From positions 1 through 64,000 of the forward strand of contig CAUDNR010002369.1 of the NCBI GenBank assembly GCA_958430865.1: a stretch of DNA of 64,000 nucleotides, read 5' to 3'. The DNA comes from Entrophospora sp. SA101 (lineage: Eukaryota; Glomeromycota; Glomeromycetes; Entrophosporales; Entrophosporaceae). The notes under the pieces are model-generated. The model had not been told where the DNA came from, ran no database searches, and was given only the letters and a program-made list of their open reading frames with translations. Position numbers and translations under genes: made by a program. Below, piece after piece: positions 5,648-63,596 of this stretch (its first letter is position 1; each line of letters opens with the position of its first letter).

Positions 5648-7438
5648 AAAATTTTTTTTTTCCCAAGTTGAAGTTTATTTTTATTAAAGTATAATTGTGT
5701 AAAATATAATAATAAAATACAAACAATTAAATAAAAAAAATAAAACTACTGCCCCTGCTACTATTAATCCAAAGAAAAAAAAATTTGGAGTGCATGGGAC
5801 CAACTTGCCATTTAGTAACTCAAAAATCGAACCATCTAGGCCTACTTAAAGTTAATGCCTATGCACCTAACTGGTATTCTCGATTCAATGGCTAGTTAAC
5901 TATTACTATAAAATCCAACCACTCGCCTCCAAATCTAAATGTAATATCCCTCTTTTACCCAATTCTAAATTGTCATTAAGGATATTATGATTATTAGATA
6001 TTGTAGATACATAATTTAATGGTTTCTTTTTATGTTTTTGCTTTCTATCTATACCAGCAGAATATTCATTGATTAGCATGTGGTTTCCATATTTCTTCTA
6101 AAATTTCTTTTTGAAGTTCATTGACAAAATTAGTTATAATTTTTTTAGTGTGCATTCTATTATTGAGAAATTTATTGATTGAGTCAGATAAAAATTTTGG
6201 AACAATGCCTTTGATTAAATCAATTGCTGTTAAAGATGCATTATTCTGATTGTTAAACCACAGGTGATCATTCCAAATCTTTTGATGATAATTTTTTTCC
6301 TTTATTCTTTTTTTGAACATTTTTTATAAGTTTGCTTTTTGCATTATATAATATTTCTTTAATTTTTTGTACATTTTGTGTACAGTTCCAAATATGTTCA
6401 AATGTTTCAAGTTAGTTTTTACATAAAGGACACTTCCAATTGTTATATAGATCTGGTCTTCATTTTTTGATGTGTTCAACTGTTGGAAGTTCTTCAATTA
6501 ATAACTTAATTTTTGAAATTTTCTTGTTTGAAGCAGTAAATGATGTTTCTGTTGATTTTTCAAAGGTGTTGATAATTTCAAAAGTCAGTTCCCAATCTAT
6601 TAAAGTTTGGCAATATTTTTTGTTTCTATATAAATTTAGCCAGGTTTCAAATCCCCCATTGTATGAAATATTTGTAATAAGGTGTCGTAAATGTTGTTCT
6701 ATGATAATATTATTCCATTTAGGTATATATTTAATGATTGTAAAAATTCAGTTGTAAATGAAAAAGGAGGGAAATCATGTGTGTGTGCATTTTTGGCTAA
6801 TGAATCTACCATTTCATTAAAATGATTTCCATTGTGTGCTTTGACCTTAATAAAGTTAATATCAATTTTTTTTATTTCTAAAATTTCATGAAGTATAATC
6901 CAAACAATGTTGTTGTGTTGTTTAAAAATATTGCGAGGAGATGTAGAAAAAGTTGTAGAAGTTAATTGTTCATATTGATCAATAGTACATTTACTATCAG
7001 TATAAATTCTAATATTTGCATTTGGAGGAGAGACTAATAGTACTGCTACCACTGCTATTAGTTCAGATCTTGCTGCTGAGGGCTAAGACCTTAAACTTGC
7101 AGTAAATTGTAATTGTGGTGCTGCTGTATGTGTTTGTATATAAGCACAGACCATAGATATATCATGTGTTCCCAAATTTGTCAAAGAACCATCTGTATAA
7201 TTCCAGGCTTTTATAAGGTTCTAGAATTATTTGGTGCTGTAGTAATTGATTTTGTATAATTGGATTGTCCACAAATTTTATAATGAGATTATTATCTGGT
7301 TGTCTTCTAGTAGGCATATGAAAGCTTGGTTTAATTATACCTAGATTAACTTCCATGACAAATTTTGCTTTTCCATATAAGTCAGCTATTGTATAGTTAA
7401 GACTACGCTCATAAGCAGAAATTTTTTTTGTATTGATG
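5648..7438 (-). mobile_element. 5'-truncated LINE retrotransposon, inserted by target priming
   Basis: The insertion is framed by an exact 18-bp direct repeat, 'acagttggatgtttaaaa', at 5630-5647 and 7439-7456. The element runs on the minus strand. Its 3' end is marked by a T run on the plus strand (a poly-A tail) just inside the left repeat at about 5650-5660. Long target duplication, poly-A tail and 5' truncation are the marks of target-primed reverse transcription. It encodes only the C-terminal part of the LINE protein: RNase H and the downstream region. It splits the host DDE transposase at 'LLETVGCLK/LTPEQ'. The copy in arm B keeps only the 5' part, 55889-57013. Confidence 0.85.
6699..7356 (-). 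pseudogene. LINE RNase H domain, arm A copy (broken)
   Basis: Minus-strand frames 7162-7356 and 6699-7052 together match the RNase H of I/Tad-type LINEs. The second has 'IYTDSKCTIDQY' and 'MVDSLAKNA', which carry the third and fourth acidic residues of the DEDD site. Two lesions break this copy: a one-base loss near 7205, which takes the TDGS motif out of frame, and a TGG-to-TAG change at about 7087 that arm B does not share. RNase H would remove the RNA strand during reverse transcription. Confidence 0.75.
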
Positions 7439-8554
7439 ACAGTTGGATGTTTAAAATTAACACCAGAACAAGAATTGGCAAATCCAAATATTCCAAAAGA
7501 AGCTAGAAAAATTTTAAAACCTGGAAAAAATGAAGAGGGTTGGTGGACAGCTGACCAATTGTTAGACCAAGTAATTGAGTATGCTATACCAATATTTGAA
7601 ACAATTCATCTTGAAGCAATTGCTGTCTTTGCATTTGATAATAGCACCAATCATGGATCCTTGCCAAAAGATGGATTGAATGCTGCACACATGAATGCCA
7701 AACCTGGAGGTAAACAACCTTGCATGTGTTCAACATTTTATGGAGCAAATAATACTCCACAGATATGATTTTTTCTGCTAATCATTCAACTCATCCAAAT
7801 TTACCTAAAGGAATGTGTGAAATTTTAAAAGAAAGAGGGTTATGGATAGATGGGTTAGTTGCTGACTGCAAATTATGTAAAGGAAAAAATACCAAAATAA
7901 TTGATTTGAAAAGAGTAGATTGTTGCATGAGACGCATTATAGCATTACAACCTGATTTTTTATCACAAAAATCAACTCTTCAAGAGGAAATTGAAAAAAG
8001 AAGTCATAAATGTATATTTTATCCAAAATTTCATTGTGAACTCAATTTTGTTGAGATATTTTGGGAGCTGCAAAACATTATACAAGAAAGAATTGAGATT
8101 ATAAGTGGTCAAGTTTACAAATAGTTGTACCAGAAGCATTAAACTCAGTATCCTTGACAACAATTCGTTGTTATGCACAAAAAAGCTGGAGATATATGAA
8201 TGTTTATAGAAAGGAATTTCAGGAAGATTAGCTGAGTTTGCAGTGAAAAAGTATAGATCACACAGTAGAGTTCCTGATTCTGTGTATGATGAAATTAAAA
8301 TTTAAGTATTCTTTTATTTTAATCTAATTTCTTGTTTTGAAACTTTTAAATTTATTGTTTTCCAAATTAAGAAAGATCTTCGACTAAAAAATGAGACTAA
8401 ATTTTTTTATGTTATAAATCGATTCCTTTTTTAAAGCTGATTTGAATGGTAATATTTTCATTAAAATCTGACAAGTGGATCACACGATATTTAGGTTTTC
8501 ATAATTTTGAGTATAGACGATTTGCACTGTAAAATTGAAATGGTGCAACTTCAC

Positions 8555-8991
8555 TAACTAATTTTGTCAATGAACTTCAAAAAGAAATTTTAGAAGAAAT
8601 ATGGAAACCGTGCTGTGAAATAATGCCAATTGATGAACAATTTGTATTTACAATATCTAATAATCATAATATCCTTAATGACAATCTAGAATTGGGTAAA
8701 AGGGGGATATTACATTCAATTAGATTTGGAGGCAATTGGTTGGATTTTATAGTAATAGCCATTGAATTGAGAATACCAGTTAGGTGCGTAAGCATTAACT
8801 TTAAATAGGCCTAGTTGGTTCGATTTTTGAGTTACTAAATGGCAAGTTGGTCTCGTGCACTCCAATTTTTTTTTGGATTCATAGTAGCAGAGGCAGTAGC
8901 TTTATTTTTATTATTAAATTGTTTGTATCTTATTATTGTATTTTACACAATATACTCTAATAAAAATAAACTTTAACTTGGAAAAAAAAAA
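8555..8991 (+). mobile_element. LINE 3'-end fragment with poly-A tail
   Basis: From 8555 the sequence matches the 3' part of the LINE at 5648-7438 in opposite orientation, starting with 'actaattttgtcaatgaac' and ending in an A run at 8982-8991. The flanks repeat: 'gtaaaattg' plus 'tgcaacttca' occur both before (8529-8553, with a 6-base difference) and after (8992-9010), so this is an independent insertion with its own target duplication rather than a break product. Confidence 0.75.
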
Positions 8992-8999
8992 GTAAAATT

Positions 9000-9097
9000 G
9001 TGCAACTTCAAACTAATAAATTCTCTAATTCATTGTTGCTCAGGTTCTAAAGATTGCAAAAATAGTGATTTTTTTCCTTAGTAGTTTGAAGTTGCAC
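9000..9097. repeat. 16-bp perfect inverted repeat (stem-loop capable)
   Basis: 'gtgcaacttcaaacta' at 9000-9015 is the exact reverse complement of 'tagtttgaagttgcac' at 9082-9097, with a 66-base loop. The left half overlaps the LINE fragment's target duplication. It is probably the terminal or subterminal structure of the host DDE element. Copies occur in arm B at 51780-51877 and 54230-54327. Confidence 0.7.
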
Positions 9098-9115
9098 TTT
9101 TTTTTTTGATGTCTT

Positions 9116-9542
9116 TATATGATGATTGATCTGCAATGTCCTGTGACTGATAACATAATAATAACGGGGGGAACTCATTCGTAGAGACGATTTCCAAATT
9201 TGACTAAAATCATGATTTTAATAATATTTATAGATGAGTTGATTTTATATACAGTACATGGGAAGAAGAATATTGGAACATAGTTTTTCAAAATACTACA
9301 TAAAAAAGGTCATTTTTTAGTTTTAGATCCTTATAGTTGTGCATACAAAATTGAGAACTTTTTTAATTTTAAAACGAAATTTGATTAAATCACATTTAAT
9401 TTAATTATTATTATTATCACATGAAAGTAAACGTCTTTATAATGTTTCCGTTTTAAGGATAGACTCGATCATTATAATAGTTTGATTTGAATTTTTATTT
9501 ATATTTTATATGGTTGTTGTACACATTAAATTATTTAAATTG
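9116..9542. other. 3' flank of Tra1 copy A
   Basis: AT-rich, with no gene. It would hold the Tra1 3' UTR on the minus strand. Bases 9411-9487 recur in direct orientation at 34073-34149, just after the assembly gap. Confidence 0.5.
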
Positions 9543-12500
9543 TTATAACCATTGCATCCATATAACCTGGATAATATGAAAAAATTTAATATGGCTTATC
9601 AAAATTTAATCATATTGATAATAAAATTTTCTTACCTCCATATTTGCTAAATTTTGTGGGTTACTTGCCATTGCTATTAAGTCCGAAATTGAGCTATACA
9701 TTGACCTATTACCATTCTGATGCCAGAATAGATAAAAACAATATTGGAATGATAAATCAATCAACCAAATAGCAATACACAAAAAGAACTAATCAATTAA
9801 ATTACCTTATCACAATTACTATCAATATTCCCAATCATCTTTGCCTTATTAACAACTTGATCAACAGTTTCTAAGACTTTCTGTCGAAGCAGTTGATCAT
9901 TAGGGTGTTTTTGACTTATATAATGCCATGTGATTAACTCATCACGAATAAAAATACTCAAGTATTGGCCTAAATCAAACTATATTATACAAAAAGCTTT
10001 AACTTTTAAAAATATAGAAATACAAGAGATTATTCAAAAAAAATTTTTATACCTCTGGTTCAGTCAAGCATCGACCAATAGCAAGCATTGCTAATAATAA
10101 AAAGATTGAATAGCTAATTAAAAACAGTACGAAATACCTTGCCAAACAATTAGACATACCTGAAGAAAAAATTCCTTCTATACCAATTGGAGTCATAAAT
10201 TGTTGTATACTGCGAGTAAACCGGAAAGGAACAGGTTCCTGGTTTTGAAACATTGGAGCTCCTTGTGCAAAACCTAATTAAAAATTTTTAAATTAGATGA
10301 AATAAATTGAATGCTATTAATAAAAACATAGATGATTTTATAACTTACTCGGAATTAATTCACTGGACCAAATGTTACCAGTATTTCGAGATATCAGAAA
10401 TTTGTGTGGATGTCTTTGACCAACACAAATTAGATATGTCATAAAAGATACAGATGCCATTTGTGAAGTAAAATGTTTCTTAAATGACCAAAGTTCCTCA
10501 TGTGATTTGATAGTTTTGGCAATGAACTAAATTATAACAATCATTAGTAATCAATATATTTTTTATATAAATATATAAACATATAATATAATACCTTTGT
10601 TAAAACGTCATTTGGTATATACTTTGATTGAATATTTCTTGCTATCTCAATTTTGAGATTTATAACATCTTTCCTCTAAGTTAATGAATAATTCAGTACA
10701 AATAATTGCATAAATTTACATGCCAAATCAATTATAGTTAAATTTCTTACTGTAATTGTATGACTTATATTGGATTTCATTTTATTAATAAAATAAATAA
10801 TGGGCTCATCTTTTGATATCTTGATATCATCACAATGATCTTCATATATATCTTGTAAAGAACAGTATGATGGATCATCCTGCACTATCCTAACTTGTGG
10901 AGCAAATGGAATTATTAGAGGAAGATGAAATGATAGATTTCGTTTACGGCTTTCTTTGTGATGTTCGATTACACTTAAAATAATAATATGATGTTGCTTT
11001 TAGTAAGAAAGTTTTAAACCTTTAAATAATGCATTTTTAAAAGGTTATTTTACTTACCTATTTAGGATTCTGAAGAGTTGTAACATTCGCTCTTCACGTC
11101 GACTATGCCTTGCTGATGGGTACTGAACTGCAAATGGGTGAAGACTACCATCATGTCCTCGTATAGTAAGTCTTCGATAACAAAAACCATGAGATCGAAT
11201 TATTTCAATTTCTGACATAAAACGATCAATACGAATAAAATCTGAATTATTGTTATCTTTAAGCTACATACATACACACGATCTAATTAGATAACAAACA
11301 AGTATAATGTTTACTGTTGACAATTAATTGATTTAAAGCTTACCAATAGATACTGTCCAGGAATTTCTACCTCTTCGAATTTTTGATGCTGAAATTCAAC
11401 CAAATAGGCACTAAAATATTCTAGATGTTGTTTACGTGGTTTGCTGTCCAATATAACCTCAAACTTGTCTCTCCATCTACGAAGATTTTCAACATATTGT
11501 GTGAAATTAGGTTTTCTTTTAATAAAATCATCTTCAAAGGCAGTCTAATAATACATATATATATATATATATAATTTAATTTAATTTAGACATAGCTGTA
11601 TCAATTTTAAATGGCCTTAACAAAAATAGGAATAACAAACCTTTATTGGACCAAGACTTAGATTATCAGCAAATCTTTTGACATTCATTTCAGTTGTGTG
11701 TGTAATTGATTCAATGTCATGATTTTGAGTCAATCTATTTGTTATTTGCTATTCACGAGACAAGAATTGGTATTCTTTTAAATTTATAAAAACTTCAAGC
11801 ACTCATACAGCAATAAAAGTAATAAAATAATACCTGTAAACCGTCATTTAAAAGTGCAACAATCAATCTATAAATATCCTCATCTGAATTTGGCTTAAGA
11901 CGTTGTTGAATTTGATCAACCATAGTCTCCATTGTTAAAGCCAATAAAGGAAAAGATGTTTTTAAAGTAGACATTATATCTTCAACATGTTCCCATGGTT
12001 GCTTTATTATGAGTTGGGGTTGTGGTGTAGTCGCAATATTTGGCAAGGTACGTTGATGATGAATTGGACTCATTCCAGGTGATTGTGTAATAGGCGATAT
12101 TCCTGTTTCAGCAACTGTTGGAGTTGTACCTTGCATATTACTTAAAGAATTAGCAGACAGTTTTCCATTAGACAAATAATTAATGTTTTGCATATTTTGT
12201 ACTGTGATATTGTTGGAAAGAGTTGGAGGCGTTGACATACTTAGAACATTAATTCCTTGTATGGCAGGACTTTGAGGTTGAGAAGACATTTGATTCGATT
12301 GATTGGTATTAACTCCAAGAATATTAATTTGAGCAGGAGGACTTCCTTGATTAGAATTACTCTGTCCAATATTTTGTGGGATTGGTTGTTGTACATTTCC
12401 AATGTTTGCAATATTAGAACCAATTTGTGATGTTGAAGAAATCACAGGAGTCACTAATTGTGTTGATGATGCTCCTGGATTATTAGCAATAGTTGATGAT

Positions 12501-15500
12501 AGTTGTGCTGCACGAGCTTGTGTTTGAGCAATGGCTACTTGTTTTTTCACCAACAAATATTCTTCTCTTGCTGTTCTTAATTGAAAATGTAATGCCTAAA
12601 AAAAAATTGTTACATTCATTAATAACTAATCATTTATTTATTTTCTACAATTGAAGAATATACAACTCACCTGAGGATATTGTTTAGCAATTTTCATAAG
12701 GATGCCACGAGCATGCTTTGCCTCTTTATGCATTAGGCATATAATAAGTTGGGGTATGAAAGTTATCCAATACCATACAGGAACTTCTGTTTTATTGAAA
12801 AATGTCTCAAAAACAATTGAAATCGTTCCTTGTGCATCATCAAGAGATAAAAGCCATAAGATACGAATTACTAGTTTTCTAGATTTAGCTGAATTATAAA
12901 GACTCGCAGCTTGTAAATAACAAGTTAAAGCATATACAGCCAAAACAATTTCATTAGGTTTCTCCTTATATTTGCGATCATTGTAATAACCCCATGCAGC
13001 CCAAGCTTTGGCAAGACGCATATCATTTGTTACAGATGTAGAAAATGATTCGTTAGCTTCTTGGTCCCGGTTAGACTTAAGATATATCATTCCTCGTAAA
13101 GTATGAAATTCTGCCTTTTGTTGTGTGCTAAAAAAGTTTAAATTTGTATTAACTATAACATCTAGAGCTTGATTCATTTCATTATTTTGATAATGGCATT
13201 TTGTTTGTTCTCTCAGCTTCAAAAACGCTTCATTAATCTCAATATTTGGCAAAGCATAAATCTTTTGCAAAAATTCTGTACAAACATCATAAAGTTGATG
13301 CTTTCTTGCAACATGTGCAAATCGGTTGATAATCCATGCAGTTTCATGATGTCCACGATGATTAGAATTTACTTGTATGTTTTGAAACTGTTCAAATGAT
13401 TTACTAATAACATTAAAAATATGTTTTCTAAAAGCAACAACATCACTCCAAATGTTAATATCATCCCACATGTTTGGTAATCTTTCTCTCCAACTTGAAA
13501 GAACATTTCTAACTTCATTTTGACTATCTGGGCTTTGAACATTACAATTTGATAAATTGGAAAATATTTTAGTTGCTTCATCAAATTCCACCATAAGTTG
13601 AAATGAATGCAATAATGGTATATGGCTTTCTGACACAATATTTGGAAGTGTATACCATTTTTGTAGTGCAAACTGATTGGCTTCTCTGATAAACTTTTTA
13701 TAATCATCAAAATTATGAGTATGATTTGAATTCATTAAAGCTATGAATGATTCAAATATTTTATATTGCGGGTTTTTGGATATTTCAAGTGATGATAAAT
13801 AAGAAATTTGTTCACTTAGTTCCTTTTCATTTGTCCAATTTACTAAATGGAATGCACAATTTAACAGTAAATCTTTGTTGTTTTCATCCTTTGCTAAATC
13901 ATAAAGAATATCCCATTGTTGCAATTTTTCTGCACATAATATCCAACGATCTTCCCATAATATGTATTCAGTTTCAGAACATATTGATCCTGAAGTATTT
14001 GATTTATTTAATGCGTTTTCATATTCTATCTGTGCTTGTAACCAATTTCCATTTTGTTCATATGAAATTGCAATATTGGTTTCAAGATATTTACAATGCC
14101 TCTTCCATAGACCATAAAACATATCATCCTCTGATAAACTGGAATAAATATCAGCCAAGGCATCTATAGTAAGCTCTTTGAATCTTTCATCATCTTTATC
14201 CTTTTCGGACGTTGCATTTTGCAAAATTGCCATTGCAATATGCCAAGCCCCATGTAATTTACCAAGGTATTTAATCAAGTGTGGCGGCAATTTCAGAACA
14301 GGTGAGCAATGTGATATTCCATCTAATATTGCTTGTATACAATTTGGTTGGAAATCTTTTTGAACATCATGATAATCTTCTGATAAAAGTGTCACTAATT
14401 TGTTGGTTAAATCTTGTCTTTCTTTATTGTTTATAGCTGACCAACAAATTGGGAAAAGATGGACCCATAAATCATATGCTATTTTATTGTCTAATTGGTG
14501 GAGCTGTTTTAAAGGTGATAATAGATCTCCAACACATAATTTTTTAACTTCAAATAAAAATTCCCTGTGTTTTTGCAGAAAATCCTCAAATTTTTGATCA
14601 ATGCTTTCTGAAGAATCTGTAAAAGATGATAAATCACCTAGTGTTGCGATTGATTTGATTTGTAAATTGTGTGTCATTTGAATACTTTTTTTATGAGAAA
14701 TTGCGCCGATTAAAAGATCCAAAGCCTGATGTATCCAGAAATAATCACCAAGTAATTCCCAATTTTGCTTATCAAGAATATAATGAAGCCGTGGTGGTAA
14801 AACTTTAGATAAGCTATGATCAAAGATCTCCATAAATTGATTACGAATTTTGGAATGTTTATAACAAGTTCCCATTAAAAAAGCCTTTTCTAATCTAACT
14901 GACAATTCACTCCTTGAAAATAAAGGATCGCTATATATTTTAATAACAAGTTCAAATACATTTTCAATCAAACTATTATCTTCCAATTTTTCATAGCACA
15001 ACATGCTAACTAATAATTTTGTCTTTTCTTCTATAGTAGGCAATAATTCTTTGTTTAATATCCATTGTTTCACCATGTTAAAAATAGTTTTTGCCAGTTC
15101 AATATCTTTTGAGTTTTCAATTAATTGTAAAAGAGATGCAGTAAAACTTTGTCTCATTTCATTGAGTTCTGTTATTCTTAAATTGACTAAATTTAATGCA
15201 ATTATAAGCACATTGATATAAGTGTCTAAGGATTGTTGATTAGTTATTAATTTATTAGTAGGACTTGTTTCTTGCGGAATTATTCTTTTTATAAGTGTTT
15301 GTATTGAATTAATTATTCCATTTAGAAAAGGATCGATGTTTTTTGGTATAGTACAACTGATAGCTTTTAATAACATCATTGCTTGATATAAATTGTTGGG
15401 ATCTTGAATAGCGTCTTGTATTGTATTATTAACTAATTGAGTAAAGGATCCTATTTCTGCACCTGGTGTAGAAGTGTTTGTTATAATTTCAATGGTTGTG

Positions 15501-18500
15501 TTAGTACTACTAGTAGCTTTAGTTGTAGTTGTTTCCATCGCTGATGGTGTTGATGTTGATGCAGGTACTATGTTTGTAATGTTTGTTTTAGTTGTAGCAG
15601 TCATAGTTTGTTCAGATTGTTGAGTTAATTCGTCTTCAACAAGAGGTGGAGTTATAGCTTTATATATGTGAATTAAAACAGGATTAAGACATCTTTGAAT
15701 ACACATAATATTACTTATAATACTACGTTCAAGTAATGGTTGTAGATGAACTAAATTTGTACGACAATATTCCGAGGGTTTCTTTTCCAAAATAACATTT
15801 AAAGCTTCTAAGTTATTACAAATACAGTCTATATTATTGCTAACTTCATTAAATTTCAATGCACGTTCAAAAGAATTCAATTTCACATTAACTTCAGGCC
15901 AGAACTCAGGCTGTAAAAGTTCCTTAATTAGATCAAGAGCTCTGTGTGCTAATAAATTTTTACTAATAGGGTCACTGGAAGCAGACACAAATCTGACAAG
16001 ATAATTGACAACGTTTTCGCGTAAATAATTGTTGGGAATGTAATTTGTATTGTATTCAGATAAATTCCTTGATTCTGAAAAACCATATTCTAGATTTTGT
16101 CGTTTTTTTGGTGAAAACTCAGTTTCCAACTCTAAGCGTCGCTTTCCAGGGCTCGCAGTAGGAGTAGATGATGCTGGGCTACTAATGTTTTGTTCATTCA
16201 TATTATTTTCATTGAGGCGACAACGTTCCCATTTGAGAATCAACTCAGCAAGATCTATTGTTAATAATCTGGTTTCAGGTGTTGCATTTTGGAGTAATCC
16301 TAACCTGGTTAATGTGTTGGCAATTTGTGGCATAAAATGTTCTCTGTATTCATAAAATAAATCAGGGTGTCTAACAAGTAATTGATAAACATTAATTAGT
16401 TGAGTCAGACCATATCCATCTTCCAAAAGAATCCTTTTTGTATACACAATCCAATTTGGTGGCGATTTCTTTTTTGAGTCTTTTTTTGATTCATCAAATG
16501 ACTGTGATTGAGGTGAGATATTAAATTTAGGTGCAAGCATATCCAATGCTTGTTTTACCAGCACCCTTGCCTCTACTTGGTGAGCTTTTAATAGTGCTGT
16601 ATAAGATTGAAATAGCATTTTTAAATTAACCTGGTCAAATTCTGCAAAACATGCAGCTAGAAACACAAATGCTGAATGTTTTGCTGTAATATCATCAACT
16701 CTTGACCAATTCCATCCAAATTTAACAAGTGGACTACGTGTAGTTATGAGATTTGGTACACTTTTAACAATAACTGTTGAAAATTGAAGAACTTCTATGC
16801 GTAAAGAATCCTCTATTTCATCATGGTTATCTGCCAGATAATGCCATAAAGATTGAATTTTATCCATTTGAGTAGTATCAATAATTTTTCCATGCTCCTG
16901 GTAGGTGTTAGAGACAGAAAGGCTTAAATTGTTTGACTCACAGTGTTTGGCAAAATCATATAATAACATTGGTGTAATTATTATCTTTAGTGATAGTGTT
17001 TTAATGTTAGGTGGAATATTTGGATCAGAAAATGTGTCTAGGAACTTTTTGAGGATTGCTTGCTTTTGTGTAACTGGATATTTTTTGGCAACTTCTTCAT
17101 GATAAAATCTTTTTAAAAATGTATAATCAATAATATTTTTATTTGAGAAAATAGAAACAAATTCAAAAAGCAAATCGATATCTTCTGGCTTTTCTTTCAA
17201 ATAAACACAGAAAATCTCTAATAAATATTTAGATTCATGCATTTGTTTTAAGTTTAAAGTATTTTCATTTTTTAGTCTATTGATGCGGCCTTGATCCCTC
17301 CAAGCTTCTTTTAAAAATATCAGGACAGGGGTTGATGAAATTTCTGATAACCATTTTGGATCAAATTTGATAATCTGTCTAATAATCAAAATTGTTCTGA
17401 TTAAAGTATCAACATAATTACTTGCATCTGAATGTTGAATACTTGAAACCTTTTCTATCAATTTTACTGGATTGTTCTTTATTTCCTCTCTAAGTTTTAA
17501 AGCTTCATCAGTACCCAATATGTTGATGAACAATTGACTATACTGATAATCCTTAATATTATTATAAAAGTACTCAACAGATTCTGTGGGGTATCTATTT
17601 AAAAATTTTGTAAGAGGTAAACGAAAAGGGCTTGATATGGAACGACATGATTTTTCTTCTAAATTTAAAACCATAGGTACCAAGTTTTCCAAAAAACTAT
17701 TTGCAGATGAAGGTAGTAGATGAAATATATTTAAGATTGCAACAATAACTTTAATATTTTCATTTTCAGTGAGTGACTTTCCTGCGGTGGACGCTAAAAA
17801 ATTTGAATCAGCCCATTGTTGGAGATGATCTAACAATTTTTTGCCTATCTCTGGTTTAAAATAACTTTTAAGCAATTCCAATAATCTTGCTAAGCAATCT
17901 AATGCAGACACTGTTAATTTTTTAGGATCCGAAAAATTAATTAAAATTGGTCTAACTCCCAATTGTAAAAGATCTTTAGACAGTTTGTGTTGCTGTTGAA
18001 TGACTTGTTGAAGAGCCTTTGTTCCTACTTCAATAATCTCTGGAATATTCATATGTAATGTTTTGAAAAAAATACCAATAATATGTGGTCTAGTAACATT
18101 TGGATTATTTCCAGAAAATAATTCATCAGGCAAAGTCATTGCTGCTTTCAATAATTTCAAACAGACAATACGAAGTTTATTCAAGACAGATGGATTCTTA
18201 TATAATGAATTACGACTCAATAAAGCCTGATCATCTTCAACATCGACTAAAAACACCACTTCACCAAGTATCCTTGTAAGATCTTCGTAATATTGAGATG
18301 TTAAGAATTGTGGCTGCAGTGTTAAACAATAGGTAATAGCATCAATACGACCTATTTGCATTGAAACTGGTAAAGCTCTAAGAGGTTGACCAAACATTAA
18401 ATTAATTAAAATGTCTTTAGCTTGGGAAAGTAAACAGGTAATAGTCCTTTGAGTCAATTCACTTAAAAGTTTAAATGCTGAATGTATTGTTTCTCTTACA

Positions 18501-34042: not shown

Positions 34043-34062
34043 TTTGTTCCTTAATTTATTCT

Positions 34063-43700: not shown

Positions 43701-46700
43701 GATTTGCTTTTTGAATTTGTTTCTATTTTCTCAAATAAAAATATTATTGATTATACATTTTTAAAAAGATTTTATCATGAAGAAGTTGCCAAAAAATATC
43801 CAGTTACACAAAAGCAAGCAATCCTCAAAAAGTTCCTAGACACATTTTCTGATCCAAATATTCCACCTAACATTAAAACACTATCACTAAAGATAATAAT
43901 TACACCAATGTTATTATATGATTTTGCCAAACACTGTGAGTCAAACAATTTAAGCCTTTCTGTCTCTAACACCTACCAGGAGCATGGAAAAATTATTGAT
44001 ACTACTCAAATGGATAAAATTCAATCTTTATGGCATTATCTGGCAGATAACCATGATGAAATAGAGGATTCTTTACGCATAGAAGTTCTTCAATTTTCAA
44101 CAGTTATTGTTAAAAGTGTACCAAATCTCATAACTACACGTAGTCCACTTGTTAAATTTGGATGGAATTGGTCAAGAGTTGATGATATTACAGCAAAACA
44201 TTCAGCATTTGTGTTTCTAGCTGCATGTTTTGCAGAATTTGACCAGGTTAATTTAAAAATGCTATTTCAATCTTATACAGCACTATTAAAAGCTCACCAA
44301 GTAGAGGCAAGGGTGCTGGTAAAACAAGCATTGGATATGCTTGCACCTAAATTTAATATCTCACCTCAATCACAGTCATTTGATGAATCAAAAAAAGACT
44401 CAAAAAAGAAATCGCCACCAAATTGGATTGTGTATACAAAAAGGATTCTTTTGGAAGATGGATATGGTCTGACTCAACTAATTAATGTTTATCAATTACT
44501 TGTTAGACACCCTGATTTATTTTATGAATACAGAGAACATTTTATGCCACAAATTGCCAACACATTAACCAGGTTAGGATTACTCCAAAATGCAACACCT
44601 GAAACCAGATTATTAACAATAGATCTTGCTGAGTTGATTCTCAAATGGGAACGTTGTCGCCTCAATGAAAATAATATGAATGAACAAAACATTAGTAGCC
44701 CAGCATCATCTACTCCTACTGCGAGCCCTGGAAAGCGACGCTTAGAGTTGGAAACTGAGTTTTCACCAAAAAAACGACAAAATCTAGAATATGGTTTTTC
44801 AGAATCAAGGAATTTATCTGAATACAATACAAATTACATTCCCAACAATTATTTACGCGAAAACGTTGTCAATTATCTTGTCAGATTTGTGTCTGCTTCC
44901 AGTGACCCTATTAGTAAAAATTTATTAGCACACAGAGCTCTTGATCTAATTAAGGAACTTTTACAGCCTGAGTTCTGGCCTGAAGTTAATGTGAAATTGA
45001 ATTCTTTTGAACGTGCATTGAAATTTAATGAAGTTAGCAATAATATAGACTGTATTTGTAATAACTTAGAAGCTTTAAATGTTATTTTGGAAAAGAAACC
45101 CTCGGAATATTGTCGTACAAATTTAGTTCATCTACAACCATTACTTGAACGTAGTATTATAAGTAATATTATGTGTATTCAAAGATGTCTTAATCCTGTT
45201 TTAATTCACATATATAAAGCTATAACTCCACCTCTTGTTGAAGACGAATTAACTCAACAATCTGAACAAACTATGACTGCTACAACTAAAACAAACATTA
45301 CAAACATAGTACCTGCATCAACATCAACACCATCAGCGATGGAAACAACTACAACTAAAGCTACTAGTAGTACTAACACAACCATTGAAATTATAACAAA
45401 CACTTCTACACCAGGTGCAGAAATAGGATCCTTTACTCAATTAGTTAATAATACAATACAAGACGCTATTCAAGATCCCAACAATTTATATCAAGCAATG
45501 ATGTTATTAAAAGCTATCAGTTGTACTATACCAAAAAACATCGATCCTTTTCTAAATGGAATAATTAATTCAATACAAACACTTATAAAAAGAATAATTC
45601 CGCAAGAAACAAGTCCTACTAATAAATTAATAACTAATCAACAATCCTTAGACACTTATATCAATGTGCTTATAATTGCATTAAATTTAGTCAATTTAAG
45701 AATAACAGAACTCAATGAAATGAGACAAAGTTTTACTGCATCTCTTTTACAATTAATTGAAAACTCAAAAGATATTGAACTGGCAAAAACTATTTTTAAC
45801 ATGGTGAAACAATGGATATTAAACAAAGAATTATTGCCTACTATAGAAGAAAAGACAAAATTATTAGTTAGCATGTTGTGCTATGAAAAATTGGAAGATA
45901 ATAGTTTGATTGAAAATGTATTTGAACTTGTTATTAAAATATATAGCGATCCTTTATTTTCAAGGAGTGAATTGTCAGTTAGATTAGAAAAGGCTTTTTT
46001 AATGGGAACTTGTTATAAACATTCCAAAATTCGTAATCAATTTATGGAGATCTTTGATCATAGCTTATCTAAAGTTTTACCACCACGGCTTCATTATATT
46101 CTTGATAAGCAAAATTGGGAATTACTTGGTGATTATTTCTGGATACATCAGGCTTTGGATCTTTTAATCGGCGCAATTTCTCATAAAAAAAGTATTCAAA
46201 TGACACACAATTTACAAATCAAATCAATCGCAACACTAGGTGATTTATCATCTTTTACAGATTCTTCAGAAAGCATTGATCAAAAATTTGAGGATTTTCT
46301 GCAAAAACACAGGGAATTTTTATTTGAAGTTAAAAAATTATGTGTTGGAGATCTATTATCACCTTTAAAACAGCTCCACCAATTAGACAATAAAATAGCA
46401 TATGATTTATGGGTCCATCTTTTCCCAATTTGTTGGTCAGCTATAAACAATAAAGAAAGACAAGATTTAACCAACAAATTAGTGACACTTTTATCAGAAG
46501 ATTATCATGATGTTCAAAAAGATTTCCAACCAAATTGTATACAAGCAATATTAGATGGAATATCACATTGCTCACCTGTTCTGAAATTGCCGCCACACTT
46601 GATTAAATACCTTGGTAAATTACATGGGGCTTGGCATATTGCAATGGCAATTTTGCAAAATGCAACGTCCGAAAAGGATAAAGATGATGAAAGATTCAAA

Positions 46701-49700
46701 GAGCTTACTATAGATGCCTTGGCTGATATTTATTCCAGTTTATCAGAGGATGATATGTTTTATGGTCTATGGAAGAGGCATTGTAAATATCTTGAAACCA
46801 ATATTGCAATTTCATATGAACAAAATGGAAATTGGTTACAAGCACAGATAGAATATGAAAACGCATTAAATAAATCAAATACTTCAGGATCAATATGTTC
46901 TGAAACTGAATACATATTATGGGAAGATCGTTGGATATTATGTGCAGAAAAATTGCAACAATGGGATATTCTTTATGATTTAGCAAAGGATGAAAACAAC
47001 AAAGATTTACTGTTAAATTGTGCATTCCATTTAGTAAATTGGACAAATGAAAAGGAACTAAGTGAACAAATTTCTTATTTATCATCACTTGAAATATCCA
47101 AAAACCCGCAATATAAAATATTTGAATCATTCATAGCTTTAATGAATTCAAATCATACTCATAATTTTGATGATTATAAAAAGTTTATCAGAGAAGCCAA
47201 TCAGTTTGCACTACAAAAATGGTATACACTTCCAAATATTGTGTCAGAAAGCCATATACCATTATTGCATTCATTTCAACTTATGGTGGAATTTGATGAA
47301 GCAACTAAAATATTTTCCAATTTATCAAATTGTAATGTTCAAAGCCCAGATAGTCAAAATGAAGTTAGAAATGTTCTTTCAAGTTGGAGAGAAAGATTAC
47401 CAAACATGTGGGATGATATTAACATTTGGAGTGATGTTGTTGCTTTTAGAAAACATATTTTTAATGTTATTAGTAAATCATTTGAACAGTTTCAAAACAT
47501 ACAAGTAAATTCTAATCATCGTGGACATCATGAAACTGCATGGATTATCAACCGATTTGCACATGTTGCAAGAAAGCATCAACTTTATGATGTTTGTACA
47601 GAATTTTTGCAAAAGATTTATGCTTTGCCAAATATTGAGATTAATGAAGCGTTTTTGAAGCTGAGAGAACAAACAAAATGCCATTATCAAAATAATGAAA
47701 TGAATCAAGCTCTAGATGTTATAGTTAATACAAATTTAAACTTTTTTAGCACACAACAAAAGGCAGAATTTCATACTTTACGAGGAATGATATATCTTAA
47801 GTCTAACCGGGACCAAGAAGCTAACGAATCATTTTCTACATCTGTAACAAATGATATGCGTCTTGCCAAAGCTTGGGCTGCATGGGGTTATTACAATGAT
47901 CGCAAATATAAGGAGAAACCTAATGAAATTGTTTTGGCTGTATATGCTTTAACTTGTTATTTACAAGCTGCGAGTCTTTATAATTCAGCTAAATCTAGAA
48001 AACTAGTAATTCGTATCTTATGGCTTTTATCTCTTGATGATGCACAAGGAACGATTTCAATTGTTTTTGAGACATTTTTCAATAAAACAGAAGTTCCTGT
48101 ATGGTATTGGATAACTTTCATACCCCAACTTATTATATGCCTAATGCATAAAGAGGCAAAGCATGCTCGTGGCATCCTTATGAAAATTGCTAAACAATAT
48201 CCTCAGGTGAGTTGTATATTCTTCAATTGTAGAAAATAAATAAATGATTAGTTATTAATGAATGTAACAATTTTTTTTTAGGCATTACATTTTCAATTAA
48301 GAACAGCAAGAGAAGAATATTTGTTGGTGAAAAAACAAGTAGCCATTGCTCAAACACAAGCTCGTGCAGCACAACTATCATCAACTATTGCTAATAATCC
48401 AGGAGCATCATCAACACAATTAGTGACTCCTGTGATTTCTTCAACATCACAAATTGGTTCTAATATTGCAAACATTGGAAATGTACAACAACCAATCCCA
48501 CAAAATATTGGACAGAGTAATTCTAATCAAGGAAGTCCTCCTGCTCAAATTAATATTCTTGGAGTTAATACCAATCAATCGAATCAAATGTCTTCTCAAC
48601 CTCAAAGTCCTGCCATACAAGGAATTAATGTTCTAAGTATGTCAACGCCTCCAACTCTTTCCAACAATATCACAGTACAAAATATGCAAAACATTAATTA
48701 TTTGTCTAATGGAAAACTGTCTGCTAATTCTTTAAGTAATATGCAAGGTACAACTCCAACAGTTGCTGAAACAGGAATATCGCCTATTACACAATCACCT
48801 GGAATGAGTCCAATTCATCATCAACGTACCTTGCCAAATATTGCGACTACACCACAACCCCAACTCATAATAAAGCAACCATGGGAACATGTTGAAGATA
48901 TAATGTCTACTTTAAAAACATCTTTTCCTTTATTGGCTTTAACAATGGAGACTATGGTTGATCAAATTCAACAACGTCTTAAGCCAAATTCAGATGAGGA
49001 TATTTATAGATTGATTGTTGCACTTTTAAATGACGGTTTACAGGTATTATTTTATTACTTTTATTGCTGTATGAGTGCTTGAAGTTTTTATAAATTTAAA
49101 AGAATACCAATTCTTGTCTCGTGAATAGCAAATAACAAATAGATTGACTCAAAATCATGACATTGAATCAATTACACACACAACTGAAATGAATGTCAAA
49201 AGATTTGCTGATAATCTAAGTCTTGGTCCAATAAAGGTTTGTTATTCCTATTTTTGTTAAGGCCATTTAAAATTGATACAGCTATGTCTAAATTAAATTA
49301 AATTATATATATATATATATATGTATTATTAGACTGCCTTTGAAGATGATTTTATTAAAAGAAAACCTAATTTCACACAATATGTTGAAAATCTTCGTAG
49401 ATGGAGAGACAAGTTTGAGGTTATATTGGACAGCAAACCACGTAAACAACATCTAGAATATTTTAGTGCCTATTTGGTTGAATTTCAGCATCAAAAATTC
49501 GAAGAGGTAGAAATTCCTGGACAGTATCTATTGGTAAGCTTTAAATCAATTAATTGTCAACAGTAAACATTATACTTGTTTGTTATCTAATTAGATCGTG
49601 TGTATGTATGTAGCTTAAAGATAACAATAATTCAGATTTTATTCGTATTGATCGTTTTATGTCAGAAATTGAAATAATTCGATCTCATGGTTTTTGTTAT

Positions 49701-51334
49701 CGAAGACTTACTATACGAGGACATGATGGTAGTCTTCACCCATTTGCAGTTCAGTACCCATCAGCAAGGCATAGTCGACGTGAAGAGCGAATGTTACAAC
49801 TCTTCAGAATCCTAAATAGGTAAGTAAAATAACCTTTTAAAAATGCATTATTTAAAGGTTTAAAACTTTCTTACTAAAAGCAACATCATATTATTATTTT
49901 AAGTGTAATCGAACATCACAAAGAAAGCCGTAAACGAAATCTATCATTTCATCTTCCTCTAATAATTCCATTTGCTCCACAAGTTAGGATAGTGCAGGAT
50001 GATCCATCATACTGTTCTTTACAAGATATATATGAAGATCATTGTGATGATATCAAGATATCAAAAGATGAGCCCATTATTTATTTTATTAATAAAATGA
50101 AATCCAATATAAGTCATACAATTACAGTAAGAAATTTAACTATAATTGATTTGGCATGTAAATTTATGCAATTATTTGTACTGAATTATTCATTAACTTA
50201 GAGGAAAGATGTTATAAATCTCAAAATTGAGATAGCAAGAAATATTCAATCAAAGTATATACCAAATGACGTTTTAACAAAGGTATTATATTATATGTTT
50301 ATATATTTATATAAAAAATATATTGATTACTAATGATTGTTATAATTTAGTTCATTGCCAAAACTATCAAATCACATGAGGAACTTTGGTCATTTAAGAA
50401 ACATTTTACTTCACAAATGGCATCTGTATCTTTTATGACATATCTAATTTGTGTTGGTCAAAGACATCCACACAAATTTCTGATATCTCGAAATACTGGT
50501 AACATTTGGTCCAGTGAATTAATTCCGAGTAAGTTATAAAATCATCTATGTTTTTATTAATAGCATTCAATTTATTTCATCTAATTTAAAAATTTTTAAT
50601 TAGGTTTTGCACAAGGAGCTCCAATGTTTCAAAACCAGGAACCTGTTCCTTTCCGGTTTACTCGCAGTATACAACAATTTATGACTCCAATTGGTATAGA
50701 AGGAATTTTTTCTTCAGGTATGTCTAATTGTTTGGCAAGGTATTTCGTACTGTTTTTAATTAGCTATTCAATCTTTTTATTATTAGCAATGCTTGCTATT
50801 GGTCGATGCTTGACTGAACCAGAGGTATAAAAATTTTTTTTGAATAATCTCTTGTATTTCTATATTTTTAAAAGTTAAAGCTTTTTGTATAATATAGTTT
50901 GATTTAGGCCAATACTTGAGTATTTTTATTCGTGATGAGTTAATCACATGGCATTATATAAGTCAAAAACACCCTAATGATCAACTGCTTCGACAGAAAG
51001 TCTTAGAAACTGTTGATCAAGTTGTTAATAAGGCAAAGATGATTGGGAATATTGATAGTAATTGTGATAAGGTAATTTAATTGATTAGTTCTTTTTGTGT
51101 ATTGCTATTTGGTTGATTGATTTATCATTCCAATATTGTTTTTATCTATTCTGGCATCAGAATGGTAATAGGTCAATGTATAGCTCAATTTCGGACTTAA
51201 TAGCAATGGCAAGTAACCCACAAAATTTAGCAAATATGGAGGTAAGAAAATTTTATTATCAATATGATTAAATTTTGATAAGCCATATTAAATTTTTTCA
51301 TATTATCCAGGTTATATGGATGCAATGGTTATAA
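37706..51334 (+). CDS. TRA1: Tra1/TRRAP pseudokinase scaffold, copy B
   Basis: Same protein as copy A, 3958 aa. Exons: 37706-37769, 37861-38018, 38087-38386, 38478-38696, 38807-38941, 39045-39173, 39256-39383, 39479-39687, 39773-40024, 40114-48206, 48282-49043, 49129-49236, 49333-49533, 49614-49819, 49904-50126, 50202-50282, 50351-50528, 50604-50717, 50787-50824, 50898-51071, 51161-51241, 51311-51334. Each phase was checked by hand; the 38-nt exon 19 ('[13 protein letters not shown]') and 24-nt exon 22 ('VIWMQWL', stop) are the smallest. The large exon product is identical to copy A over 2699 codons. Two Thr/Ser-rich inserts occur, one near 45265-45415 and one in exon 11. The first exon ends in phase 1 before an unusual GTTTGT donor. 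The 3' end of the gene from exon 20 on is duplicated again at 53399-53784. If both copies are real and transcribed, the organism would have two Tra1 genes as fission yeast does, but here they are not diverged. Confidence 0.93.
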
Positions 51335-51885
51335 CAATTTAAATAATTTAATGTGTACAACAACCATATAAAATATAAATAAAAATTCAAATCAAACTAT
51401 TATAATGATCGAGTCTATCCTTAAAACGGAAACATTATAAAGACGTTTACTTTCATGTGATAATAATAATAATTAAATTAAATGTGATTTAATCAAATTT
51501 CGTTTTAAAATTAAAAAAGTTCTCAATTTTGTATGCACAACTATAAGGATCTAAAACTAAAAAATGACCTTTTTTATGTAGTATTTTGAAAAACTATGTT
51601 CCAATATTCTTCTTCCCATGTACTGTATATAAAATCAACTCATCTATAAATATTATTAAAATCATGATTTTAGTCAAATTTGGAAATCGTCTCTACGAAT
51701 GAGTTCCCCCCGTTATTATTATGTTATCAGTCACAGGACATTGCAGATCAATCATCATATAAAGACATCAAAAAAAAAAGTGCAACTTCAAACTACTAAG
51801 GAAAAAAATCACTATTTTTGCAATCTTTAGAACCTGAGCAACAATGAATTAGAGAATTTATTAGTTTGAAGTTGCACAATTTTAC
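51335..51885. other. 3' flank of Tra1 copy B with 16-bp inverted repeat
   Basis: Mirror of 8992-9542. The inverted repeat 'gtgcaacttcaaacta' lies at 51780-51795 with its complement at 51862-51877. No gene. Confidence 0.5.
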
Positions 51886-52322
51886 TTTTTTTTTTCCAAG
51901 TTAAAGTTTATTTTTATTAGAGTATATTGTGTAAAATACAATAATAAGATACAAACAATTTAATAATAAAAATAAAGCTACTGCCTCTGCTACTATGAAT
52001 CCAAAAAAAAATTGGAGTGCACGAGACCAACTTGCCATTTAGTAACTCAAAAATCGAACCAACTAGGCCTATTTAAAGTTAATGCTTACGCACCTAACTG
52101 GTATTCTCAATTCAATGGCTATTACTATAAAATCCAACCAATTGCCTCCAAATCTAATTGAATGTAATATCCCCCTTTTACCCAATTCTAGATTGTCATT
52201 AAGGATATTATGATTATTAGATATTGTAAATACAAATTGTTCATCAATTGGCATTATTTCACAGCACGGTTTCCATATTTCTTCTAAAATTTCTTTTTGA
52301 AGTTCATTGACAAAATTAGTTA
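51886..52322 (-). mobile_element. LINE 3'-end fragment, arm B unit 1
   Basis: Reverse complement of 8555-8991, with the poly-A tail now a T run at 51886-51895. Confidence 0.7.
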
Positions 52323-52569
52323 GTGAAGTTGCACCATTTCAATTTTACAGTGCAAATCGTCTATACTCAAAATTATGAAAACCTAAATATCATGTGATCC
52401 ACTTGTCAGATTTTAATGAAAATATTACCATTCAAATCAGCTTTAAAAAAGGAATCGATTTATAACATAAAAAAATTTAGTCTCATTTTTTAGTCGAAGA
52501 TCTTTCTTAATTTGGAAAACAATAAATTTAAAAGTTTCAAAACAAGAAATTAGATTAAAATAAAAGAAT

Positions 52570-53398
52570 ACTTAAATTTTAATTTCATCATACACAGAAT
52601 CAGGAACTCTACTGTGTGATCTATACTTTTTCACTGCAAACTCAGCTAATCTTCCTGAAATTCCTTTCTATAAACATTCATATATCTCCAGCTTTTTTGT
52701 GCATAACAACGAATTGTTGTCAAGGATACTGAGTTTAATGCTTCTGGTACAACTATTTGTAAACTTGACCACTTATAATCTCAATTCTTTCTTGTATAAT
52801 GTTTTGCAGCTCCCAAAATATCTCAACAAAATTGAGTTCACAATGAAATTTTGGATAAAATATACATTTATGACTTCTTTTTTCAATTTCCTCTTGAAGA
52901 GTTGATTTTTGTGATAAAAAATCAGGTTGTAATGCTATAATGCGTCTCATGCAACAATCTACTCTTTTCAAATCAATTATTTTGGTATTTTTTCCTTTAC
53001 ATAATTTGCAGTCAGCAACTAACCCATCTATCCATAACCCTCTTTCTTTTAAAATTTCACACATTCCTTTAGGTAAATTTGGATGAGTTGAATGATTAGC
53101 AGAAAAAATCATATCTGTGGAGTATTATTTGCTCCATAAAATGTTGAACACATGCAAGGTTGTTTACCTCCAGGTTTGGCATTCATGTGTGCAGCATTCA
53201 ATCCATCTTTTGGCAAGGATCCATGATTGGTGCTATTATCAAATGCAAAGACAGCAATTGCTTCAAGATGAATTGTTTCAAATATTGGTATAGCATACTC
53301 AATTACTTGGTCTAACAATTGGTCAGCTGTCCACCAACCCTCTTCATTTTTTCCAGGTTTTAAAATTTTTCTAGCTTCTTTTGGAATATTTGGATTTG
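52570..53398 (-). pseudogene. Host DDE transposase 3' part, arm B unit 1
   Basis: Mirror of 7479-8307. It includes 'HCELNFVEIFW' with the catalytic E and 'FAFDNSTNH' with the second D. It is cut at 53398 by the tandem-duplication junction, so its upstream part is missing. Confidence 0.65.
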
Positions 53399-53784
53399 TG
53401 GCATTATATAAGTCAAAAACACCCTAATGATCAACTGCTTCGACAGAAAGTCTTAGAAACTGTTGATCAAGTTGTTAATAAGGCAAAGATGATTGGGAAT
53501 ATTGATAGTAATTGTGATAAGGTAATTTAATTGATTAGTTCTTTTTGTGTATTGCTATTTGGTTGATTGATTTATCATTCCAATATTGTTTTTATCTATT
53601 CTGGCATCAGAATGGTAATAGGTCAATGTATAGCTCAATTTCGGACTTAATAGCAATGGCAAGTAACCCACAAAATTTAGCAAATATGGAGGTAAGAAAA
53701 TTTTATTATCAATATGATTAAATTTTGATAAGCCATATTAAATTTTTTCATATTATCCAGGTTATATGGATGCAATGGTTATAA
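53399..53784 (+). pseudogene. Partial Tra1 3' end (exons 20-22) from the tandem duplication
   Basis: Contains the last part of exon 20 (53399-53521), exon 21 (53611-53691) and exon 22 (53761-53784), with introns intact. It is not connected to a promoter or to the rest of the gene, so it is a non-coding copy of the FATC end. Confidence 0.85.
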
Positions 53785-54335
53785 CAATTTAAATAATTTA
53801 ATGTGTACAACAACCATATAAAATATAAATAAAAATTCAAATCAAACTATTATAATGATCGAGTCTATCCTTAAAACGGAAACATTATAAAGACGTTTAC
53901 TTTCATGTGATAATAATAATAATTAAATTAAATGTGATTTAATCAAATTTCGTTTTAAAATTAAAAAAGTTCTCAATTTTGTATGCACAACTATAAGGAT
54001 CTAAAACTAAAAAATGACCTTTTTTATGTAGTATTTTGAAAAACTATGTTCCAATATTCTTCTTCCCATGTACTGTATATAAAATCAACTCATCTATAAA
54101 TATTATTAAAATCATGATTTTAGTCAAATTTGGAAATCGTCTCTACGAATGAGTTCCCCCCGTTATTATTATGTTATCAGTCACAGGACATTGCAGATCA
54201 ATCATCATATAAAGACATCAAAAAAAAAAGTGCAACTTCAAACTACTAAGGAAAAAAATCACTATTTTTGCAATCTTTAGAACCTGAGCAACAATGAATT
54301 AGAGAATTTATTAGTTTGAAGTTGCACAATTTTAC
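53785..54335. other. Tra1 3' flank, second tandem copy
   Basis: Copy of 51335-51885, including the 16-bp inverted repeat at 54230-54245 and 54312-54327. No gene. Confidence 0.5.
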
Positions 54336-54772
54336 TTTTTTTTTTCCAAGTTAAAGTTTATTTTTATTAGAGTATATTGTGTAAAATACAATAATAAGAT
54401 ACAAACAATTTAATAATAAAAATAAAGCTACTGCCTCTGCTACTATGAATCCAAAAAAAAATTGGAGTGCACGAGACCAACTTGCCATTTAGTAACTCAA
54501 AAATCGAACCAACTAGGCCTATTTAAAGTTAATGCTTACGCACCTAACTGGTATTCTCAATTCAATGGCTATTACTATAAAATCCAACCAATTGCCTCCA
54601 AATCTAATTGAATGTAATATCCCCCTTTTACCCAATTCTAGATTGTCATTAAGGATATTATGATTATTAGATATTGTAAATACAAATTGTTCATCAATTG
54701 GCATTATTTCACAGCACGGTTTCCATATTTCTTCTAAAATTTCTTTTTGAAGTTCATTGACAAAATTAGTTA
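54336..54772 (-). mobile_element. LINE 3'-end fragment, arm B unit 2
   Basis: Copy of 51886-52322. Confidence 0.7.
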
Positions 54773-55019
54773 GTGAAGTTGCACCATTTCAATTTTACAG
54801 TGCAAATCGTCTATACTCAAAATTATGAAAACCTAAATATCGTGTGATCCACTTGTCAGATTTTAATGAAAATATTACCATTCAAATCAGCTTTAAAAAA
54901 GGAATCGATTTATAACATAAAAAAATTTAGTCTCATTTTTTAGTCGAAGATCTTTCTTAATTTGGAAAACAATAAATTTAAAAGTTTCAAAACAAGAAAT
55001 TAGATTAAAATAAAAGAAT

Positions 55020-55888
55020 ACTTAAATTTTAATTTCATCATACACAGAATCAGGAACTCTACTGTGTGATCTATACTTTTTCACTGCAAACTCAGCTAAT
55101 CTTCCTGAAATTCCTTTCTATAAACATTCATATATCTCCAGCTTTTTTGTGCATAACAACGAATTGTTGTCAAGGATACTGAGTTTAATGCTTCTGGTAC
55201 AACTATTTGTAAACTTGACCACTTATAATCTCAATTCTTTCTTGTATAATGTTTTGCAGCTCCCAAAATATCTCAACAAAATTGAGTTCACAATGAAATT
55301 TTGGATAAAATATACATTTATGACTTCTTTTTTCAATTTCCTCTTGAAGAGTTGATTTTTGTGATAAAAAATCAGGTTGTAATGCTATAATGCGTCTCAT
55401 GCAACAATCTACTCTTTTCAAATCAATTATTTTGGTATTTTTTCCTTTACATAATTTGCAGTCAGCAACTAACCCATCTATCCATAACCCTCTTTCTTTT
55501 AAAATTTCACACATTCCTTTAGGTAAATTTGGATGAGTTGAATGATTAGCAGAAAAAATCATATCTGTGGAGTATTATTTGCTCCATAAAATGTTGAACA
55601 CATGCAAGGTTGTTTACCTCCAGGTTTGGCATTCATGTGTGCAGCATTCAATCCATCTTTTGGCAAGGATCCATGATTGGTGCTATTATCAAATGCAAAG
55701 ACAGCAATTGCTTCAAGATGAATTGTTTCAAATATTGGTATAGCATACTCAATTACTTGGTCTAACAATTGGTCAGCTGTCCACCAACCCTCTTCATTTT
55801 TTCCAGGTTTTAAAATTTTTCTAGCTTCTTTTGGAATATTTGGATTTGCCAATTCTTGTTCTGGTGTTAATTTTAAACATCCAACTGT
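55020..55888 (-). pseudogene. Host DDE transposase 3' part, arm B unit 2
   Basis: Mirror of 7439-8307, here complete up to the LINE insertion point. The frames 55559-55894 and 55203-55562 carry the same frameshift as in arm A, so that lesion predates the duplication. Confidence 0.65.
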
Positions 55889-57013
55889 CATCAATACAAA
55901 AAAAATTTCTGCTTATGAGCGTAGTCTTAACTATACAATAGCTGACTTATATGGAAAAGCAAAATTTGTCATGGAAGTTAATCTAGGTATAATTAAACCA
56001 AGCTTTCATATGCCTACTAGAAGACAACCAGATAATAATCTCATTATAAAATTTGTGGACAATCCAATTATACAAATCAATTACTACAGCACCAAATAAT
56101 TCTAGAACCTTATAAAACCCTGAAATTTTATACAGATGGTTCTTTGACAAATTTGGGAACACATGATATATCTATGGTCTGTGCTTATATACAAACACAT
56201 ACAGCAGCACCACAATTACAATTTACTGCAAGTTTAAGGTCTTGGCCCTCAGCAGCAAGATCTGAACTAATAGCAGTGGTAGCAGTACTATTAGTCTCTC
56301 CTCCAAATGCAAATATTAGAATTTATACTGATAGTAAATGTACTATTGATCAATATGAACAATTAACTTCTACAACTTCTTCTACATCTCCTCGCAATAT
56401 TTTTAAACAACACAACAACATTGTTTGGATTATACTTCATGAAATTTTAGAAATAAAAAAAATTGATATTAACTTTATTAAGGTCAAAGCACACAATGGA
56501 AATCATTTTAATGAAATAGTAGATTCATTAGCCAAAAATGCACACACACATGATTTACCTCCTTTTTCATTTACAACTGAATTTTTACAATCATTAAGAT
56601 ATATACCTAAATGGAATAATATTATCATAGAACAAACATTTACAACACTTTTATTACAAATATTTCATACAATGGGGGAATTGAAACCTGGCTAAATTTA
56701 TATAGAAACAAAAAATATCACCAAACTTTAATAGATTGGGAACTGATTTTTGAAATTCTCAACACCTTTGAAAAATCAACAGAAACATCATTTACTGCTT
56801 CAAACAAGAAAATTTCAAAAATTAAGTTATTAATTGAAGAACTTCCAACAGTTGAACACATCAAAAAACGAAGACCAGATCTATATAACAATTGGAAGTA
56901 TCCTTTATGTAAGAACCAACTTGAATTGTTTGAACATATTTGGACCTGTACACAAAATGTACAAAAAATTAAAGAAATATTATATAATGCAAAAACCAAA
57001 CTTATAAAAAATG
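55889..57013 (+). mobile_element. LINE fragment with RNase H, arm B (cut at outer edge)
   Basis: Counterpart of 6318-7438. A frame of 183 codons (56144-56695) extends left to 'KFYTDGSLTNLGTHD' and holds all four DEDD residues of RNase H: D in 'TDGSL', E in 'ARSELIAV', D in 'YTDSKC', D in 'VDSLAKNA'. Downstream, 'YPLCKNQLELFEHIWTC' (about 56900-56950) is the C-x3-...H-x3-C ending typical of I/Tad-type LINE proteins. Arm B lacks the TAG found in arm A but has its own one-base loss near 56075. The element stops at 57013; its poly-A end is absent. Confidence 0.75.
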
Positions 57014-57033
57014 AGCATAATGGACATTTGTTT

Positions 57034-63591: not shown

Positions 63592-63596
63592 TGTTT

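Follow-up and report, generated by a model that had tools for sequence, protein, structure and literature searches.

The window analysed here, the 64,000 bases at positions 1-64000 of contig C1367 (85,546 bp; Entrophospora sp. SA101, assembly of 101.35 Mb in 2123 contigs), carries two complete copies of a Tra1 gene, termed Tra1-A, in inverted orientation, and this duplication is almost certainly false, an artefact of assembly. The original prediction had left both a recent inverted duplication and a false join open; the latter side is now strongly favoured and the former is not, because a third copy of the locus lies on the same contig and because several faults are seen directly in the assembly, namely redundancy of the locus with an overlap left unmerged, fold-backs within the gene, a piece that is a hybrid of Tra1-A and a second gene, Tra1-B, and comparable duplications of unrelated genes. 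Taken at face value, the contig would add to the databases a recent duplication of a dosage-relevant chromatin scaffold gene.

The inverted block and the Tra1-A gene

Self-comparison confirmed that the predicted inverted repeat is present as sequence. Copy 2 of the block (34863-53398, forward strand) is the inverted match of copy 1 (7479-26014, reverse strand) over 18,536 bp, with 99.973% identity, five mismatches and no gaps; one mismatch lies at position 8485 and the other four inside 24818-24837 (copy-1 coordinates). The 10 N noted earlier at 34063-34072 are likewise present and form the sole N run within the window. The duplication had been drawn out to position 57013, and an inverted match does continue that far, with 53399-57013 corresponding to 9928-6318 at 99.23% identity; copy 2 is not continuous over this distance, however, because a 2450-bp direct repeat abuts exactly at 53398/53399.

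Spliced alignment to the Entrophospora candida protein P0002 places Tra1-A at 9546-23171 (reverse strand) in copy 1 and at 37706-51331 (forward strand) in copy 2. Both genes are complete, encoding 3915 amino acids with zero internal stops followed by TAA, and the identity first seen in the large exon extends over the entire coding sequence; the count of 22 exons gives way to 23 when made against the E. candida protein. The large exon of 8.1 kb (12671-20763, reverse strand, in the open frame 12638-20767), delimited by the frame list together with the spliced alignment, yields a 2709-residue product with the Pfam domains Tra1_ring, Tra1_central and FAT, which also matches solved Tra1/TRRAP chains in the PDB. 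The HEAT central and ring regions, the FAT domain and the solved Tra1 chains bear out the identification of the gene as Tra1, a pseudokinase of the Tra1/TRRAP type, and the relatives P0002 and P0003 additionally list PF00454. In the list of relatives, which shows 120 of 307, E. candida has the closest protein (99% identity), followed by Entrophospora sp. SA101 (85%), with Rhizophagus irregularis at 59%.

Joints between the copies

A single bad join at the 10 N, as first envisaged, is too small a fault, with five suspect joints found on the contig (34136-34149, 34863, 53398/53399, C1367:65887-65945 and C1367:68531) and none of them itself an N run. The two genes do face away from a central spacer, but the estimate of about 8.8 kb for its length included 34073-34863, which consists of two scraps of the Tra1 locus. 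The shorter, 77 bp long (34073-34149, forward), exactly matches 9411-9487, where the Tra1 gene region of copy 1 has its 3' end, and the longer, of 728 bp (34136-34863, forward), comes from the large exon and is 100% identical to 45898-46625. They meet head to head, in inverted orientation, with 14 nt of microhomology at 34136-34149, just past the 10 N, and the 728-bp scrap then joins copy 2 at 34863 with 1 nt shared.

At 53398/53399, copy 2 ends and restarts 2450 bp back with 0 nt shared, so that 50949-53398 is repeated as 53399-55848 on the forward strand with one mismatch. This abutted, unmerged overlap is absent from copies 1 and 3. A biological tandem duplication was considered as its source and rejected, since it occurs in only one of the three copies and similar seams are found on contigs C459 and C376. 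The window lacks the continuous junctions and the sound context of each copy by which a real inverted segmental duplication is recognised, because the inner joint runs through two inverted scraps beside the N run and the outer part is split by the unmerged overlap.

A third copy and a hybrid piece

A third, broken copy of the locus lies beyond the window on the same contig (C1367:65094-79260). Nine matches to the 8130-bp exon frame were found in the genome, comprising the two full window copies, Tra1-B on contig C1777 (87%), two pieces of C1367 past the window, the 728-bp window scrap and three 236-bp matches elsewhere; a Pfam Tra1_ring search of the genome returned the same six large places. 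The larger part of the third copy, C1367:68531-79260, matches 16367-5652. Within it, C1367:68531-77419 has zero mismatches to copy 1 and one to copy 2, and all 38 mismatches between copies 1 and 3 fall within the flank 5652-7478.

At C1367:68531, midway through the large exon, the contig turns back on itself across 8 nt of inverted microhomology, into a second, inverted piece of the Tra1 locus (C1367:65094-68543). This piece is exactly Tra1-B over 65094-65945 and exactly Tra1-A over 65887-68523, with 59 identical bases common to both at the switch. Gene conversion is a less likely source of this piece, since two blocks that each match a different gene exactly, with a shared switch of 59 bp, are better explained by a hybrid assembly. 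The hybrid piece shows only that Tra1-A and Tra1-B were both in the assembled material.

Unrelated genes as controls

The four families Prp8, Spt16, MCM and Rpb2 supplied nine eukaryotic gene sets as controls: Prp8 on C1330; Spt16 on C308; MCM on C1449, C25/C542, C1068/C2070 and C480; and Rpb2-type genes on C1447, C1359 and C459. Repetition within one contig was found in three of the nine (C1330, C1359 and C459), with DNA 99.93-100% identical. The copy of the Prp8 gene is 99.93% identical over at least 2826 bp and starts 72 bases after an N run, those 72 bases being a fold-back scrap; C1359 holds three copies, one of them inverted, identical at 100% over the 2.3-2.5 kb compared; and C459 holds an inverted copy (6124 bp, 99.98%) together with an abutted overlap of 220 bp. 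Since a third of the control sets repeat in this way, the assembly is untrustworthy as to how many copies a gene has and how genes are ordered locally. Two further sets (C25/C542 and C1068/C2070, both MCM) show equal-scoring copies on two contigs, a pairing judged by equal scores only and not by DNA comparison.

Exact direct repeats abutting at a seam, which mark assembly redundancy when they recur at unrelated loci, turned up at three places across the DNA scanned: the window (2450 bp), C459 (220 bp) and C376 (101 bp). The C376 seam has one base shared between its units and is present in two overlapping loci. The scan took in 254,401 bases other than N, a total to which overlapping loci contribute more than once and in which the whole contig stands in for 12 C1367 loci. 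Outside the nine sets, repeats were also found on C1472 (4790 bp at 100%) and C1732 (3180 bp at 99.3%), which were picked because spacer matches came twice there and are not an unbiased sample. PF08490 had no match in the assembly nor in the control genomes and is hence uninformative as a control; it too stands outside the nine.

Origin of the duplication and competing explanations

The favoured explanation is that one Tra1-A locus was assembled several times as separate contigs, partly chimeric, and that a single scaffold then took up these redundant contigs next to each other and in both orientations. The published SA101 genome derives from 24 single nuclei amplified by multiple displacement amplification (MDA) with phi29 polymerase; the nuclei were assembled singly or pooled, Lingon was used to merge the single assemblies, and a Canu nanopore assembly served for the scaffolding of all of them (PMC6987183). 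The exact match of Tra1-B to an SA101 database protein suggests that phi29 amplification also lies behind the DNA of the present assembly. Amplification of single nuclei would then have produced inverted fold-back molecules, contigs would probably have ended on entry into repeats, and the merging of per-nucleus assemblies followed by scaffolding would have retained the surplus copies. Repeat-terminated contigs used several times would account for both the identity of the copies and the absence of insertions and deletions.

If instead the Tra1-A locus had truly undergone an inverted segmental duplication in the nucleus very recently, and local assembly errors had been added to it, this would agree with two complete copies of identical coding sequence, and the near-identity of the blocks suits a very recent event. 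Such a real duplication is nevertheless highly improbable in view of the third broken copy, the A/B hybrid, the fold-backs within the locus and the unmerged overlap, and the same pattern at the Prp8 and Rpb2-type genes also argues against it. Still less credence is due to the proposal that the scaffolder placed two nuclear haplotypes of one locus, as in a heterokaryon, side by side: outside the block the three copies have flanks 2-3% apart, a divergence that alleles of a mobile-element region might show, but the blocks themselves are identical save at five sites, there are three copies and not two, and 1351 bp of the flank of copy 3 is 99.7% like C1382 and may be another copy of that repeat. 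Even then, a contig carrying both haplotypes would be falsely duplicated.

Several points weigh against the conclusion of a false duplication through redundant contigs. With four of the nine control sets present once only, the fault is common and not universal. The totals of the present assembly, 101.35 Mb in 2123 contigs, fit no row of Table 1 of the published genome paper (PMC6987183), and a shared production route is our inference. The evidence for the verdict is assembly sequence and not reads. The lower block edge at 7479 is set by the copy-2 seam and not itself shown as the edge of a repeat, the five mismatches between the arms (8485 and a cluster of four within 20 bases) may be genuine, and where a second copy should show the true neighbour of 26014, the contig passes at 34863 into nothing but Tra1 scrap.

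Block edges, spacer and neighbouring features

The upper edge of copy 1, 26014, adjoins a 579-bp dispersed repeat (26015-26593) with matches on eight other contigs among the matches listed. With this repeat begins the spacer (26015-34062), of which 27376-33177 has a 99.9% copy on C376. An open frame at 28538-29323, on the stretch common to C376, has an HMG-box match above the cut-off and a weak SAP match.

Below the block, own-genome search showed the copy-1 flank (5652-7478) to be repetitive, with 5786-7122 being 96% like C1382 and 5652-6172 95% like C1111. Position 7479 was dropped as a repeat edge, as likeness to copy 1 continues for a further 73 bases in copy 3 and 229 in copy 2 before they diverge; the odds of the explanations are unchanged by this loss, because the joints and the controls carry them. 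The copy-2 flank (55849-57013, forward) is 97.8% like that of copy 1 and contains an open frame at 56039-56695 with an RNase H domain (Pfam). Its outer end, 57013, lies 18 bases ahead of a pair of direct repeats resembling long terminal repeats (LTRs), at 57032-57707 and 62920-63594 (676 aligned bp, 99.4% identical), which bound a possible LTR element at 57032-63594. Pfam found no LTR-element protein domain in 57032-63594, and a 759-residue frame at 59546-61825 had only a sub-threshold match to COMPASS-Shg1. In the left flank, an open frame at 924-1439 has a DDE_3 transposase domain and lies on a stretch with many copies in the genome.

The Rpb2 family on six contigs comprises three eukaryotic and three bacterial-type genes. 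Among the eukaryotic ones, the Rpb2-like gene on C459 is 75% (102 residues) and 56% (116 residues) identical to Rpb2 on C1447, and may be a paralogue or stem from a foreign eukaryote. The genes on C555, C1799 and C2074 we take to be bacterial-type RpoB. The frame on C1799 is open for 669 residues when TGA is read as Trp, and TGA encodes Trp in the Mollicutes-related endobacteria of arbuscular mycorrhizal fungi. DNA identity is 86% between C555 and C1799 and 65-67% between C2074 and those two, from which several endobacterial types may be present in the assembly.

Tra1-B and the A/B pair

The statement that Tra1 is normally single-copy holds as a general expectation that needs care here, as a second, diverged Tra1 gene, Tra1-B, is intact on contig C1777 (21850-35009, by spliced alignment). 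It equals the SA101 database protein P0003 exactly (3695 amino acids, 18 exons, zero mismatches), the record of which comes from another assembly. Tra1-A and Tra1-B are identical at 3194 of 3672 aligned residues (87%), with a synonymous divergence (dS) of 0.41, a nonsynonymous divergence (dN) of 0.064 and a ratio of 0.16 by the Nei-Gojobori method. In a tree of 12 proteins, built from the large exon only for Tra1-A and with odd residue make-up flagged in four rows including Tra1-A, E. candida and Tra1-B, the SA101 Tra1-A groups with E. candida and Tra1-B stands next to them, with support of 100/100.

These comparisons tentatively suggest, at somewhat under even odds, that Entrophospora has two working Tra1 genes, A and B, whose split would predate that of E. 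candida and SA101, and which may divide SAGA and NuA4 between them as in fission yeast, though by an independent route. A genome present in two versions throughout, as in a hybrid, was considered as the source of the pair and set aside, since Spt16 and Prp8 are without a diverged second copy; the Rpb2-family contigs give it no clear support. Tra1-A and Tra1-B may be two genes of one nucleus or belong to two genotypes in one culture, a question open to test.

Comparison with known systems

In fission yeast, SAGA and NuA4 each have a Tra1 paralogue of their own, and the two are non-redundant (PMC6868236). The identical pair within the window is not a pair of this Tra1/Tra2 type. Tra1-A and Tra1-B resemble it, as two intact Tra1-type genes in one assembly, and differ from it in that they are 87% identical and that a division between SAGA and NuA4 is not known for them.

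The inverted joints on the contig resemble the chimeras of MDA described by Lasken and Stockwell in 2007, more than 85% of which were inverted, with 337 of 406 inverted ones joining segments less than 10 kb apart and more than 70% of junctions showing 2-21 nt of complementarity (PMC1855051); a 2026 paper likewise reports pervasive palindromic reads after MDA (PMC13265396). Two of the four joints measured, 34136-34149 and C1367:68531, are of this kind, jumping 5.5 and 3.0 kb in inverted orientation with 14 and 8 nt of complementarity, respectively. Unlike those chimeras, these joints stand in an assembly and not in reads, and the other two, at 34863 and 53398/53399, which connect segments in direct orientation with 1 and 0 nt shared, need another cause. 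From the merged single-nucleus assemblies of Claroideoglomus claroideum/luteum SA101 the present one differs in its totals, and the main text of that source does not contain the word 'chimer' (PMC6987183). It is like them in belonging to the same strain, judged by the exact Tra1-B protein, and in its spurious duplication, the authors having reported spurious gene duplication, with duplicated single-copy genes rising as assemblies of nuclei are merged in workflow 2 (PMC6987183).

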